Below, piece by piece: positions 2,325-9,830 of a stretch of DNA of 11,326 nucleotides. Location of the stretch: the NCBI GenBank assembly GCA_031287505.1, contig JAITSW010000184.1:1-11326 (forward strand), in the 5' to 3' direction. A model generated the notes under the pieces. It was not told the DNA's origin. It searched no databases and saw only the letters and a list, made by a program, of their open reading frames with translations. The translations under genes were made by a program, and so were the position numbers. Numbering within the stretch: position 1 is the first letter of the stretch; each line of letters begins with the position of its first letter. The DNA comes from Propionibacteriaceae bacterium. Lineage in GTDB: Bacteria; Actinomycetota; Actinomycetes; Propionibacteriales; Propionibacteriaceae.

Positions 2325-2352
2325 AAAAAAAGCGACTCAAGAGAGCCGCTTT
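2325..2352 (-). terminator. Intrinsic terminator (attenuator) between the Cys leader peptide and cysK
   Basis: Read on the minus strand, AAAGCGGCTC (2352-2343) and GAGTCGCTTT (2338-2329) form a 10-bp stem with one G-U pair and a TCTT loop, followed directly by T residues to 2325 (seven in a row counting the stem end). On the plus strand the G-U pair becomes an A-C mismatch and the tail is absent, so the signal is oriented towards cysK. It lies 18 nt after the stop codon of the leader peptide and 42 nt before the cysK ATG, as in classical amino-acid operon attenuators. Confidence 0.85.
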
Positions 2353-2370
2353 GGAGGTTTGCGTAGTTGC

Positions 2371-2442
2371 TTAGCGCATACGACAACAAGCCGCCGACGG
2401 CATGGCGCAACAACACACAGACGCCACAGCCGTTTTGAACAT
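2371..2442 (-). CDS. Polycysteine leader peptide of cysK (23 aa)
   Basis: An ATG at 2442-2440 opens a 23-codon frame that ends at TAA (2373-2371). The peptide has five cysteines in two runs: CCC at residues 10-12 (TGT TGT TGC) and CC at 19-20 (TGT TGT), within [16 protein letters not shown]. It has no Shine-Dalgarno. A TAGCGT -10 box ends exactly 7 nt before the ATG, so it is probably translated from a leaderless transcript. Leaderless polycysteine short ORFs are known as cysteine-responsive attenuators in mycobacteria, and cysteine-rich leader peptides have been predicted before actinobacterial cys operons. Ribosomes pausing at the Cys codons would signal low Cys-tRNA. The RNA just after the stop codon (GCAAC, 2370-2366) can pair with either Cys-codon cluster (GUUGC 2411-2407 or GUUGU 2387-2383), giving mutually exclusive structures upstream of the terminator. 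The frame lies inside a longer open frame whose upstream part has no start signal. Confidence 0.75.
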
Positions 2443-2449
2443 GTGCCAA

Positions 2450-2455
2450 ACGCTA
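2450..2455 (-). promoter_or_regulatory. -10 box for the leaderless Cys leader transcript
   Basis: The minus strand reads TAGCGT, matching TANNNT, and is followed by exactly 7 nt (TTGGCAC) before the leader-peptide ATG. The predicted transcription start therefore coincides with the A of the ATG at 2442. No good -35 is visible; the best upstream candidate is a poor TTACCC at 2479-2474. A small inverted repeat CCCA-GCT-TGGG (2465-2475) sits just upstream and could bind a regulator, but it is short. Confidence 0.5.
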
Positions 2456-2553: not shown

Positions 2554-4119
2554 ATGGGAACTGTGCATGACTTGGTTTTGGTCGTTGATTTCGGGGCGCA
2601 GTACGCGCAGTTGATCGCCCGCCGGGTTCGGGAAGCCAAGGTTTACTCGGAAATTGTTCCACATAGTATGCCCGCCGTTGATATCCTCGCCAAAAACCCG
2701 AAGGCGATTGTCCTATCTGGCGGGCCGAGCTCGGTGTATGAGCCGGGAGCGCCGCAACTTGATAACGCCCTGCTTGAAGCCGGCGTCCCGGTATTGGGTA
2801 TTTGCTACGGCTTTATGGCGATGGCGCAGGCCTTGGGCGGGCAGGTCGCCCAGACCGGCCAGCGCGAGTTTGGGCGCACCGAAGTCAGTGTTTTGAACGA
2901 GGGCAAGCTGCTCAGCGGACTGCCTTCCACCCTTACCTCCTGGATGTCTCATGGGGACGAGGTGGTTTCAGTCCCCGGGGGTTTCTCGCTGAATGCCTGC
3001 TCTCCGCGCGCCACGGTGGCGGCGTTTGAGAATCGCGAACGCCGGTTAGCCGGCGTGCAATGGCATCCCGAGGTTGCCCACAGCCAGTTTGGGCAAAAAG
3101 TGCTGGAACATTTCCTCTACGACATTGCCGGGTGTTCCCCCTCGTGGACGGCCAATTCGATTGTGGATGAACAAGTGGCCCGGATTCGGGCCCAGGTCGG
3201 CACCGGCCGGGCAATCTGCGGGCTTTCCGGCGGTGTCGATTCCGCGGTGGCCGCCGCACTCGTGCAGCGGGCCATCGGCGACCGGCTAACCTGCGTTTTC
3301 GTAGACCATGGCTTGCTTCGCGCTGGAGAACGCGAACAAGTCGAGCAAGATTTTGTGGCGGCCACCGGCGCAAGGCTTAAAACGGTGGCTGCTCAAAAGC
3401 GCTTCCTGGACTTCCTCGAAGGCGTTGGAGACCCAGAGCAGAAGCGCAAGATCATCGGACGTGAGTTCATCCGCGTCTTTGAAGCCGCCCAGCGGGAGGT
3501 CATCGCCGAGGCAGCTGATGGCGATCCGGTGAGATTCCTAGTCCAAGGAACTCTGTATCCAGACGTCGTCGAATCTGGCGGCGGTGAAGGCGCTGCCAAC
3601 ATTAAAAGCCACCACAATGTCGGCGGGTTGCCCGAAGACCTGCGTTTCGAGTTGGTAGAGCCGCTTCGCACGCTGTTCAAAGACGAAGTCCGCCAGGTGG
3701 GCCGCGAGCTGGGGCTGCCCGGTGTCATCGTTGACCGCCATCCCTTCCCGGGCCCGGGCTTGGGTATTCGCATTGTCGGCGCAGTTGACGCCGAACGCCT
3801 GCGCATCCTGCGTGCCGCCGACGCCATAGTCCGCGAGGAGACGACGGCTGCCGGGTTGGACGCCGAAATCTGGCAGTTCCCGGTGGTGCTGCTCGCCGAC
3901 GTCCGCTCGGTGGGGGTTCAAGGTGATGGTCGTACTTACGGCCATCCCATCGTTCTGCGCCCGGTCACCAGCGAAGATGCCATGACGGCCGACTGGGGTC
4001 GGCTGCCATTCGACGTCCTGGAAAAGATGAGCACCCGCATCACCAATGAGGTGCCGGAGGTAAACAGGGTAGTCCTTGACGTGACGAGCAAGCCGCCGGG
4101 CACCATCGAATGGGAGTGA
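2554..4119 (+). CDS. guaA: GMP synthase (glutamine-hydrolysing) GuaA
   Basis: This 521-residue enzyme converts XMP to GMP with ATP and glutamine in the last step of guanine nucleotide synthesis. The N-terminal class I glutamine amidotransferase has [18 protein letters not shown] at 10-27, nucleophile Cys84 in GICYG and the His171/Glu173 pair in QWHPEV. The ATP-pyrophosphatase has its P-loop SGGVDS at 225-230, and the dimerisation domain ends in the standard GTIEWE. The ATG at 2554 gives the usual family length and start and has a leaderless -10 box. Upstream in-frame ATGs at 2479, 2482 and 2497 would add 19-25 unrelated residues, and the frame stays open back to 2290 only by chance. Oddity: residue 88, normally the Gln of GxCxGxQ, is Met (GICYGFM). 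The gene is divergent from cysK and converges on the 4182-5165 gene. Confidence 0.96.
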
Positions 4120-4181: not shown

Positions 4182-5165
4182 CTACGGGGTGTCGGGGGTT
4201 TCCAAGGTCGTCGGGGTAGCAGATTCCGAACCGGAGGGAGTCTCGGGCTGCGTGGTCGAGGGCTCTTCGGAAGGCTTTGGGCTGGGAGAGGCCGACTCGG
4301 CGGGGGGTGATTCTGACGAAGACTCGGACGGATCCGGCGAGGGGGACAAGCTGGGGTCGGGAGAAACCGGGGCACTGGTGGACGGGCTCGTCACCGGATC
4401 TGGGGTTGGGGGTGTTTGAGACCCCGCACCCGCATCGACATCGCCGGGAAGATGCGCCGGCGGGACTGCCAATCCGCCGATGGTTGTTCCTTCTTGGCCG
4501 CTTAGGGAACGGCCGGTGAGCATCTCCCAGCCGGTTATCGCAGTGAAGGCCAACAGGAAGATAGCGATACCGACGACGATGACACGCACTAGCGCTGCGG
4601 TGCGCAGGCTCTCCTTTGGGGCGGCTTCTGTCTCTTCTGGGTCAGCTTCGCCGATCCTCAGCTCGGGGAGTTCTGTCTCTTCTAGGTCAGTTCCGCCGAT
4701 CTCCAGCTCGGGGAGCTTTGTCTCTTCTAGGTCAGCTTCGCCGATCCCCAGCTCAAGGAGTTCTGCCTCTTCAGCTGCCTGTTGAAGCTTTTGACCGTTT
4801 GCGGGGTTGGGGAGCGCTGTCTCGTCCGCGGCTGGGAGAATTTCGGTCTGAGTGTCACCGCCGGCCTCTTCGCCTGGGTTGGCAGCAGCCGAGTCGGAGC
4901 GGATAAGCTCAACCCCGCGTGAGAGTGCCGAGCCCACCTTCTTCGAAGTCTTGGTGATGCCAACGGTGTAGAGCGTCCCGCCGACAGCGCCGATGATACT
5001 GGCCACCGCCGCGCCGATGATGGTGCCTGCCACACCCAAGGTGGAGCCGATCGCCGCCGCGGTGGCAGCGGCTAAAGCGCCACCCAACACTTGCGGCAGC
5101 GAGAATGAAAGCTCGCGCGGCTTGTCATCGAGCGGACTGTTGTTTTTGTCTGGTTCGCTGCTCAT
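4182..5165 (-). CDS. Repeat-containing membrane protein with Pro/Ser/Thr-rich tail (unknown function)
   Basis: I do not recognise this 327-residue protein. After a polar start, residues 26-70 form a Gly/Ala-rich hydrophobic region (glycine-zipper-like: IGSTLGVAGTIIGAAVAS). An acidic linker contains three tandem 15-residue units at 136-150, 151-165 and 166-180 (middle unit LPELEIGGTDLEETE), then a clear transmembrane helix at about 190-212. The C-terminal 85 residues or so are rich in Pro, Ser and Thr, as in wall-spanning or exposed tails. The likely topology puts the acidic repeats in the cytoplasm and the tail outside, though the first hydrophobic region could change this. The ATG is 9 nt after the stop of the glycosyltransferase gene, so the two are almost certainly co-translated; only a weak GCGGG ribosome site is seen. 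It is the last gene of the mshA-led operon. Confidence 0.72.
   Translation of the reverse strand: MSSEPDKNNSPLDDKPRELSFSLPQVLGGALAAATAAAIGSTLGVAGTIIGAAVASIIGAVGGTLYTVGITKTSKKVGSALSRGVELIRSDSAAANPGEEAGGDTQTEILPAADETALPNPANGQKLQQAAEEAELLELGIGEADLEETKLPELEIGGTDLEETELPELRIGEADPEETEAAPKESLRTAALVRVIVVGIAIFLLAFTAITGWEMLTGRSLSGQEGTTIGGLAVPPAHLPGDVDAGAGSQTPPTPDPVTSPSTSAPVSPDPSLSPSPDPSESSSESPPAESASPSPKPSEEPSTTQPETPSGSESATPTTLETPDTP
4626..4760 (-). repeat. Three tandem 45-bp in-frame repeats
   Basis: Three consecutive 45-bp units encode LLELGIGEADLEETK, LPELEIGGTDLEETE and LPELRIGEADPEETE. They are in frame inside the membrane protein at 4182-5165, so copy number can change by slippage or recombination without breaking the frame. 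The DNA units are similar but not identical, which means the duplication is not very recent. Confidence 0.8.
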
Positions 5166-7845: not shown

Positions 7846-8625
7846 TTACGCGCTGTCGGCGGATGGCAGTTTCATGGTCACGGATAGGGGTAACCTTTGA
7901 AGCTGCCCGCCCACATGTGCAATTGTCTCACCGTTGAGCGAGAGCTGGCTGCGATAACACCGCAGCGCCGCGCAAATCCGGGGGCGATAGCGCTCAAACC
8001 CAACGGTGACCGCCCCAGTGGGTAAGCGGTTTGCGCCCAGGTATTCCCGCGAAACGATCTCCCAGCGCGGGATGCCCGCCGCTTTCGCAGCCTGTTTGGC
8101 AACCTCATGGCAAGTGACGTGGTCTGGGTGGAGGTAGCCACCGTATTCGTCATAGCCAATTAGGGCATCTGCGCGGAAAACCGAGAGAAAGGCGGCCAAA
8201 TCTGCCACTGGTTCGGCATGCGGCGCGAGCGAAAAGGCGGTGTCTTCGGCGGCCGGGTCCGGGCCGGCCACCCCGTCCGAAATCCAGCTCATTCCAGAAT
8301 CCCCGTAGACGCGTGCTGGACGTCCGGCTGCCCTGGCCGGCGGCCATCCCAAGAACGCCTGGGTGACATCACCCAACTCGGCCAACGCGCTCAGCAGCTC
8401 GCTTTCGCGCAGGGCTGCTAAGGCGGCCTTGGGATCCGGGGTGCCTGCGAGTTCTTGGGCGACTTGTCCGGTGGCCTCTCCAGCTTCCCCGCGGGTGGCA
8501 GTCACCACCGCGACTGCAGCTCCGGCATCGGAAAACGCGGCTATCAGCCCACCGGTTGCGAGGGTTTCATCGTCGGGGTGGGCATGGAAAAAGACCGGGC
8601 GTTTCGCAGATTCAAGCCAGGTCAT
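7846..8625 (-). CDS. mshB: PIG-L family deacetylase, MshB-like (mycothiol pathway)
   Basis: This 259-residue LmbE/PIG-L zinc hydrolase most likely removes the acetyl group from GlcNAc-inositol, the step after MshA. It has HAHPDDE (14-20; zinc ligands His16 and Asp19, general base Asp18), YGDSGMSW (108-114), resembling the DSGM segment of MshB, and YGGYLHPDHV (161-170; zinc ligand His169). The ATG at 8625-8623 overlaps the mshA TGA (ATGA, 8625-8622), and an AAGGCG site lies 7 nt upstream inside mshA, pointing to translational coupling. An upstream in-frame ATG at 8691 would add 22 residues lying in mshA and is rejected. Adjacency to mshA supports MshB over mycothiol S-conjugate amidase (Mca), though these paralogs overlap in activity. 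Confidence 0.86.
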   Translation of the reverse strand: MTWLESAKRPVFFHAHPDDETLATGGLIAAFSDAGAAVAVVTATRGEAGEATGQVAQELAGTPDPKAALAALRESELLSALAELGDVTQAFLGWPPARAAGRPARVYGDSGMSWISDGVAGPDPAAEDTAFSLAPHAEPVADLAAFLSVFRADALIGYDEYGGYLHPDHVTCHEVAKQAAKAAGIPRWEIVSREYLGANRLPTGAVTVGFERYRPRICAALRCYRSQLSLNGETIAHVGGQLQRLPLSVTMKLPSADSA

Positions 8626-9830
8626 GCCGATGCGCCTTGGCTGATGAGTTTTTGATACAGGTCCTCTAGTTGCAGTGCTGCCCAGCGCCACTGAAAGCGG
8701 CGGGCATGTACCCGGGCCACCGTCCCCATGGCGGCTAGCAGTTCGGCGTTAGAGAGCAGGCTGACAATTGCCCGGCCCCAATCGGCTGGTTCGCGGGAAT
8801 CCATCAAATAGCCGGTCTCGCGGTGTGCAACTGCCTCGCGCAGCCCGCCAGCCGAGGAGGCGATAACCGGTGTGCCGCTGGATTGCGCTTCCAGGGCTAC
8901 CAACCCGAAGGTTTCGGAATAGGAGGGGACGAGGGTGATCTGCGCGCCGCGCATCAAACGGGCCAACTCCCGGCGTTGCAGCGGGCCGGTGAAATCGACT
9001 TGGCCGCTTAAATTTAGGGACGCCGTCAGCGCCAGCAATTCGGCTTCGTAGGCGCGGAAATCTTCCGAAACATCGCCGGCGACGACCAAACGCGGACGGA
9101 TTTGCGCGGGTACTTCTGCCAGCGCCCGAATGGCCAGATCAGGGGCTTTGAGGGGCTGTAGGCGGGCGGCGAAGAGCACATAACCCGATGTCCCCTTCGC
9201 TGCCGGGCGAGCCTGGCCAACACCCGGCGGGTGGAACAGCGCATGATCGACACCGGGATGAATGATGTGAACGCGATCAGGGGTAGCGCCGCAACGCGAG
9301 ATAACGGTATGCGCCTCGGCCGCGCTGATGGCGACGATGGCATTAGACTCGCGGGCGCATTGGGCTTCGCCGGCAACCCGGGCGCTTGATTCGGGAGGCT
9401 CGCCTTCGGATAGCCCGGAGTTTGGCAGCGCCGCGACGGAGTGATAACTCTGGACGTGCGGGATGCCCCAAGTTTTCGCCCAAGGCAAAGCGGCCACTCC
9501 CGACATCCAGTGGTGCGAATGGATGGCGTCAAAGCCCCCAAGCTTGCCGATATTCGCCGAAAACTGCGGGATATGCGCGTCAATAGCGCTTTTGGCCAAA
9601 GGCGCGGCCGGGCCGCCGTCCAAATGCCTGAGGAAAACGCCGTCGGACAATTCGACGATGTCTGGCTGATCAGGTGATGAGCGGCGGGTGATGAGCTCAA
9701 TCCGGTGGCCAAGTTTGGCCAAATGCTCTCCCTGAGCCCGCTCGACTACATTCATGCCGCCCGCGTCCCCGGAACCAGGTTGGGCGGCGGGGGAGGTGTG
9801 CATCGAGACGAACGCCAGTTTTAGCGGCAT
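8622..9830 (-). CDS. mshA: D-inositol-3-phosphate glycosyltransferase MshA-like
   Basis: This 402-residue GT4 (GT-B fold) enzyme is expected to join UDP-GlcNAc to inositol 3-phosphate, the first step of mycothiol synthesis. Signatures are MHTSPAAQPGSGDAGGMNV (10-28), HSHHWMSG (104-111), AARLQPLKAPD (221-231; donor-binding Arg223 and Lys228) and ETFGLVALE (306-314; Glu306 and Glu314). Lys80 and Arg151 match phosphate-site residues of C. glutamicum MshA as I remember them, while the usual Tyr of HSHYW is His107 and a conserved Thr is Ser131. No ribosome site precedes the ATG; a TAGAAT -10 box ends 7 nt upstream, so the mRNA is probably leaderless. It heads a run of six closely spaced genes and overlaps mshB by 4 nt. 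Confidence 0.9.
   Translation of the reverse strand: MPLKLAFVSMHTSPAAQPGSGDAGGMNVVERAQGEHLAKLGHRIELITRRSSPDQPDIVELSDGVFLRHLDGGPAAPLAKSAIDAHIPQFSANIGKLGGFDAIHSHHWMSGVAALPWAKTWGIPHVQSYHSVAALPNSGLSEGEPPESSARVAGEAQCARESNAIVAISAAEAHTVISRCGATPDRVHIIHPGVDHALFHPPGVGQARPAAKGTSGYVLFAARLQPLKAPDLAIRALAEVPAQIRPRLVVAGDVSEDFRAYEAELLALTASLNLSGQVDFTGPLQRRELARLMRGAQITLVPSYSETFGLVALEAQSSGTPVIASSAGGLREAVAHRETGYLMDSREPADWGRAIVSLLSNAELLAAMGTVARVHARRFQWRWAALQLEDLYQKLISQGASA

Follow-up and report, generated by a model that had tools for sequence, protein, structure and literature searches.

A conserved polycysteine leader followed by a predicted intrinsic terminator upstream of cysK in a Propionibacteriaceae genome: a candidate cysteine-responsive attenuator

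Cysteine leaders and the locus upstream of cysK

Cys leader peptides have been predicted before cys operons in Mycobacterium and Propionibacterium acnes, and before cbs in Bifidobacterium longum (Seliverstov et al. 2005; PMC1262725). The accessible part of that paper finds no conserved terminator hairpin, lists the leaders as "without obvious terminators", and suggests Rho. The preliminary description of the present locus has the actinobacterial leaders as predicted mostly without obvious terminators. In mycobacteria, leaderless polycysteine sORFs are described, in the accessible text of PMC9031893 and PMC13236596, as translational control of the downstream genes, and Canestrari et al. (2020; PMC8764745) is presented there, as in the accessible text of PMC9094748, as cysteine-responsive control. 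In Rhodobacterales, the uORFC-8-2 motif before cysS comprises a Cys uORF, two stems, and a U run, with a proposed ribosome-mediated transcription attenuation by the level of Cys-tRNA (PMC8632094, from the text available). In Streptomyces lividans, trpL1, leuL2, and ilvL are leaderless leader peptides with Rho-independent terminators; the table in the part of the paper available concerns other amino acids, with no leader assigned to cysteine, and metL does contain Cys codons (PMC8079986). No cys case was found in the available part of PMC2965389. In the literature searched, which included few subscription papers, we did not find an actinobacterial cysteine leader with an intrinsic terminator.

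The stretch of DNA analyzed here, called the window, is 11,326 nt long and belongs to a genome of 1.64 Mb that is 71% complete (G000). The Actinomycetaceae, first taken as the host family, are the wrong assignment: the named best relatives of its cysK are mostly Propionibacteriaceae and related MAGs. Within the Propionibacteriaceae, the genus is probably Propionicimonas. On the minus strand, cysK (cysteine synthase A, 1341–2282) is followed downstream by cysE (serine O-acetyltransferase, 520–1071), both assigned with NCBIfam, and the two presumably form one operon. The divergent neighbor guaA (2554–4119, plus strand) runs away from the leader. No Shine–Dalgarno sequence was found for cysK between 2282 and 2310 of the minus strand (duplex energy 0.5 kcal/mol), unlike the cysK of a genus mate, G016, which is preceded by AGGAG. 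MshA- and MshB-like genes of mycothiol biosynthesis (7846–9830, minus strand; best NCBIfam matches, both under the curated cut-offs) share the window with cysK–cysE.

Ahead of cysK–cysE, the minus strand contains a reading frame of 23 codons plus TAA (2371–2442, 72 nt, with the ATG at 2442). Five of the 23 codons are for cysteine, in two clusters recovered also in the leader alignment: TGT TGT TGC at codons 10–12 (2407–2415), codon 10 being the stall site modeled below, and TGT TGT at codons 19 and 20 (2383–2388). A −10 box, TAGCGT (2450–2455), lies 7 nt upstream of the ATG, and a weak −35-like TTACCC (2474–2479) precedes it with an 18-nt spacer. A scan for consensus sigma-70 promoters did not find one at the window leader; the promoter call is based on the relatives: all 17 leaders checked carry TANNNT 6–7 nt before the ATG, and 12 of the 17 aligned have TTGACC at the −35 position, the window having TTACCC only. 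The −10 spacing suggests a leaderless mRNA and, because it is conserved, transcription is predicted to start at or beside the leader ATG.

Directly after the stop codon, the stretch GCAACTACGCA (2360–2370) can pair with either Cys cluster, a complementarity noticed earlier. Next comes the stem–loop AAAGCGGCTC-TCTT-GAGTCGCTTT (2352–2329), with 10 pairs (one G-U) and T's to 2325. Its first arm, AAAGCGGCTC (2343–2352, segment 3), contains GCGGC at 2349–2345; the second arm together with the U run is GAGTCGCTTTTTTT (2325–2338, segment 4). Both arms come from hairpin scans. This predicted terminator (2352–2325, −14.2 kcal/mol) sits between leader and cysK, 18 nt past the leader stop codon. It is the sole perfectly paired hairpin of −8 kcal/mol or below with T5 on either strand of the window in our own scan; with looser settings, 16 terminator-like sites are found against 11.3 (sd 4.0) in shuffles. 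The succession of −10 box, 7 nt, ATG, 23-codon frame, Cys runs of three and two, stop, 18 nt, 10-bp stem, and U run agrees on the minus strand with the preliminary description.

An NCBIfam search with the leader peptide and those of four relatives gives no family, and Rfam gives no match at the curated score over the whole window. A match below threshold to Phe_leader (RF01859; 2437–2323, minus strand, whole model, 26.6 bits, E 0.021) carries little weight, because it is absent from the G016 and G011 leaders and because a control leader has an unrelated Rfam match at E 0.0006.

Compared with the leaders of PMC1262725, as far as its available text describes them, the window has in common the short reading frame, the runs of Cys codons near the stop, and the position before cys genes; it differs by its clear terminator, and P. 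acnes belongs to the same family as the window host. The mycobacterial sORF attenuators, in the texts available, share the short leaderless frame (in the window, predicted), the contiguous Cys codons, and the position before genes that respond to the cysteine supply (in the window, again predicted), to which the window adds an intrinsic terminator between leader and cysK. With uORFC-8-2, compared by its available description and not by sequence, the Cys-codon frame and the U run are in common, but that motif occurs in Alphaproteobacteria, before a tRNA synthetase gene, and has two tandem Cys codons. The S. lividans leaders, from what is available of PMC8079986, are likewise actinobacterial and combine a leaderless frame (in the window, predicted) with a terminator.

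Conservation of the leader and occurrence of the terminator

Of the 30 genomes of the genus (G000–G029), 19, the window included, have a leader of precisely 72 nt whose Cys codons align. These leaders were collected by reading the DNA around peptide matches, cysK, and metY; the first alignment had 17, with G025b and G035 left out (other kinds of leader), and the addition of G022 and G007 gives 19. The peptide follows the pattern MxSTxxATMCCCCxPSMACCRMx (13 leaders aligned), and the first Cys cluster starts at codon 10, except in G028 and G014 (codon 11). The Cys codons of the 19 leaders are skewed to TGT (56 TGT to 48 TGC, against 2 to 14 in six genes of the window; p = 0.0024, a value that ignores the kinship of leaders that are not independent). 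Odd or eroded leaders occur in G011, G013, G019, G023, and G029. None was seen before metY of G021 or within 1.2 kb upstream of cysK of G004; in G001 and G005 the region is lost at contig ends, and G006 and G020 lie outside the leader survey. By its position, length, Cys codons, and promoter, all conserved in the genus, the leader is a real element.

In the 198 genomes of the family, a search with the peptide gives matches in 50 at E ≤ 1, the top two being the window and G016. Class-wide, a search with the leader alignment (394 genomes) gives 54 at E ≤ 0.1, mostly short pieces within long frames, and from the match table we judge them mostly due to chance. A DNA pattern of Cys codons and T-run, run on the 198 family genomes, matches the window; we counted none of its other matches as a cysK case, judging from the printed sequence, with two loci read. 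Because it reported neither G016 (6-nt spacing) nor G011 (without adjacent Cys codons), the pattern is no measure of rarity. Two loci of another kind were met in the family. In G025 (L162), another kind of Cys-rich leader, MSASVYTIVRPACCRMRMCCR (oriented stop at 3781), which also looks leaderless, stands before a small gene, presumably for a DUF4395-like protein. In G213 (L241), a T-tailed hairpin, CCGCCTGATGTAGGCGG, lies between the short frame MHTTRTWWPA, which has two Trp codons, and a probable lipoprotein gene; from its sequence, the locus resembles a trp-type attenuator, again within this family.

The gene following the 72-nt leader is metY (O-acetylhomoserine/O-acetylserine sulfhydrylase) in 17 of the 19, with cysK after metY in some of these genomes (e.g., G012). 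Among the 19, cysK comes directly next only in the window and in G016. In G016, metY sits elsewhere and the 420 nt before it contain no Cys leader; the incomplete window genome yielded only distant metY relatives. In a third cysK-first case, G011, the leader is shorter (MFVNQTCKCRCGVPLASCQF) and stands behind TAGGGT and 7 nt.

With a stem of at least six pairs, −8 kcal/mol or below, and T5 as the definition of a terminator, three of 104 distinct cysK upstream regions have one, those of the window, G016, and G011, each time directly behind a Cys-codon leader, and none of 58 metY loci does (duplicates not removed). Between leader stop and gene, the 17 metY leaders never show more than four T's in a row, nor a T5-tailed hairpin. 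The three cysK stems differ in sequence and remain paired, the sixth core pair being U-A, C-G, or G-C. Conservation in relatives, put forward earlier as a check, holds in part: the Cys codons and the stop position are kept, and the stem is kept with a changed sequence in G016 and G011, but most genus mates have no terminator. Other Propionibacteriaceae, and one MAG of the Actinomycetaceae (L072), have Cys-rich candidate leaders upstream of cysK that no terminator follows. The window and G016 do not group as sisters in the cysK tree. A tree uniting the terminator forms was not found (G011 is in the cysK tree, unlabeled).

Folding model of the switch

The E. coli trp attenuator works by the logic of four segments, and antiterminators of the trp type are usually regarded as kinetic. 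In the model used here, transcripts ending just after the first arm of the terminator are folded with the bases under the ribosome kept unpaired. Segment 1 (ACGGC.. TGGCG, 2421–2433, minus strand) can pair with segment 2 (2397–2408) when free of the ribosome; segment 2, which includes GCCGU at 2401–2397, has either segment 1 or the first arm of the terminator as partner, the latter pairing being the antiterminator. When the ribosome is placed at the first Cys codon, the first arm is paired with GCCGU in the window, or with GCCGUC in G016, and the second Cys cluster pairs with the anti-Cys stretch, nested inside the antiterminator helix. The GCCGU (2401–2397) to GCGGC (2349–2345) pairing, named in the preliminary description as a candidate antiterminator, is the one that the folding finds at this stall. 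The counterparts are GCCGUC with GGCGGC in G016 and GCCGCU with AGCGGC in G011.

The cost of freeing the first arm, in the order first-Cys stall, no ribosome, ribosome at stop, is 7.8/2.6/3.4 kcal/mol in the window and 5.2/1.9/1.2 kcal/mol in G016. The E. coli trp control (L233), with Trp codons in place of Cys codons, gives the same pattern under the same ribosome-mask computation, with a cleaner contrast than the window (9.2/0.1/0.0 kcal/mol). With the stall moved to codon 11 or 12, the cost is 2.8 or 2.3 in the window, where the first arm is not trapped, and 2.0 or 5.5 in G016. Moved to codon 19 or 20, it is 6.7 in the window, where the arm is trapped, and 5.9 in G016. The contrast requires an upstream ribosome edge of 15–18 nt: an edge of 12 nt abolishes the first-Cys contrast in both leaders and weakens the trp control as well.

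Random synonymous leaders (codon counts from five in-frame genes) with a shuffled spacer reach the contrast of the window in 1.2% of 600 draws or 1.5–1.8% of 400 draws, and that of G016 in 0.7–5.5%; with permuted codon order, the values are 0.7% (window) and 4.7% (G016). The statistic was picked after the folds were seen, and all these percentages are therefore guides. In G011, the stall stands out from the ribosome-free state (null 1.3%), but not from the state with the ribosome on the stop codon (4.8 versus 8.7 or 3.8; null 0.70 or 0.12).

The hairpin between segments 1 and 2 forms in the cut transcript of the window when the ribosome sits at the stop codon, and in the terminator-containing folds of both the window and G016 with the ribosome at the stop or absent. 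When the cut transcripts carry no ribosome, and also in G016 with the ribosome at the stop, segment 2 is held by other folds of the leader and not by segment 1. Across the 19 leaders, the segment 1:2 helix keeps one register, with six pairs, each paired in 17–19 of them; the changes among the 19 are one-sided, with no two-sided ones, and in the window three of these six pairs are lost and two further ones gained. The 45-nt piece containing the helix is more stable than most random synonymous versions (fraction as low, 0.002–0.13 in the 19 leaders); for the window, 13% of random versions are equally stable. For the full switch, left unsettled in the preliminary description, we propose segment 1 as the alternative holder of segment 2. 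At equilibrium, the terminator of the window wins in every ribosome state modeled, and the switch must therefore be kinetic; in the window, the states separate only in transcripts that end before the second arm.

Put together from the elements, their conservation, and the alternative pairings of the folding model, the predicted steps, from transcription start and leader translation to termination and the cysteine response, would be as follows. Transcription would start at or beside the ATG of the leaderless 23-codon frame. With ample Cys-tRNA, or on a ribosome-free transcript, other parts of the leader would occupy segment 2 (GCCGU), most simply segment 1; the terminator would then form and RNA polymerase would stop ahead of cysK. 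With scarce Cys-tRNA, the ribosome would stall at codon 10 and cover segment 1, so that segment 2 and the second Cys cluster would pair with the first arm and the anti-Cys stretch, and transcription would enter cysK. The locus is thus probably a cysteine-responsive, ribosome-mediated transcription attenuator of cysK–cysE. Classical ribosome-controlled termination, as envisaged in the preliminary description, is the best-supported reading on purely computational grounds: the conservation of the leader, the cysteine-making role of cysK and cysE, the order leader, terminator, cysK common to three related leaders (window, G016, and G011), and the folding.

Alternative explanations and outputs of the leader

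The mycobacterial type of attenuator is defined by pairing of the Cys codons with the start region of the downstream gene. In four metY leaders, a complementarity resembling the mycobacterial one is present. A stretch that ends some 20 nt ahead of the metY start, with AGGAG right behind it, can pair with the first Cys cluster over 16 bases in G018 and G003, and in G008 and G007 the same kind of complementarity extends over 13 bases. The shuffle p values for pairing of the Cys codons near metY are 0.004 (G008) and 0.000 (G007, G018, and G003), with weaker cases in G025a (0.010) and G014 (0.044), all uncorrected for 38 tests; in the other metY leaders, the pairing of the Cys clusters with the metY start region is not significant. 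These sequences suggest that the metY leaders of the four genomes may be under translational control. The 16-base complements just upstream of the metY Shine–Dalgarno in G018 (L165) and G003 (L166) mark candidate translational attenuators within the same genus.

Extended to the window, the same control would have the Cys codons pair with a stretch hiding the start region of cysK, the hairpin being secondary. The four metY leaders, with their 13–16 bp just upstream of AGGAG, speak for it, but no such pairing stands out near the cysK start in the window (p 0.19 for cluster 1 and 0.68 for cluster 2) or in G016 (p 0.06 and 0.70), the cysK of the window has no Shine–Dalgarno to hide, and a strong intrinsic terminator is present in both; we consider this explanation unlikely for the window. 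It is also improbable that the leader is a remnant and the hairpin a constitutive premature terminator setting a low basal level of cysK with no cysteine response. The preference for the terminator in all ribosome states at equilibrium, as well as the eroded-looking leaders of the genus mates G013, G023, and G029, would fit such a role, but in the window the Cys runs, the length, and the stop position are kept, and in the model stalling affects what becomes of the first arm more strongly than it does in random leaders.

Very improbable is a hairpin that terminates an upstream gene at its 3′ end, unrelated to the leader. In G011, guaA is indeed upstream of cysK and in the same direction, but in the window and G016 it is divergent; the next likely minus-strand gene upstream in the window ends at 4182, 1.7 kb off, so that no nearby gene on that strand calls for a terminator here. 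Moreover, the stem starts 13–20 nt past the leader stop in the window, G016, and G011. A chance meeting of a random short Cys-codon frame with a random hairpin is hardly credible: short Cys-rich frames do arise randomly, and the class-wide matches look mostly random, but the position, length, Cys codons, and promoter kept throughout the genus already contradict it.

Attenuation of transcription in response to cysteine is the reading retained as probable for cysK–cysE. For the genus, a broader idea is put forward tentatively, at slightly less than an even chance: one leaderless 23-codon polycysteine sensor, with a hairpin of its own, may be wired to different outputs, Shine–Dalgarno sequestration before metY in some species and an intrinsic terminator ahead of cysK in three. 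This change of output would accompany an operon lacking metY and may have occurred repeatedly (the window and G016 stand apart on the cysK tree). Polycysteine leaders are known in related bacteria, where they are described without an intrinsic terminator; here a predicted one follows the leader. A plain intrinsic terminator makes a transcriptional mechanism directly testable, and the close relatives devoid of it suggest how one codon-counting sensor attaches to different outputs.
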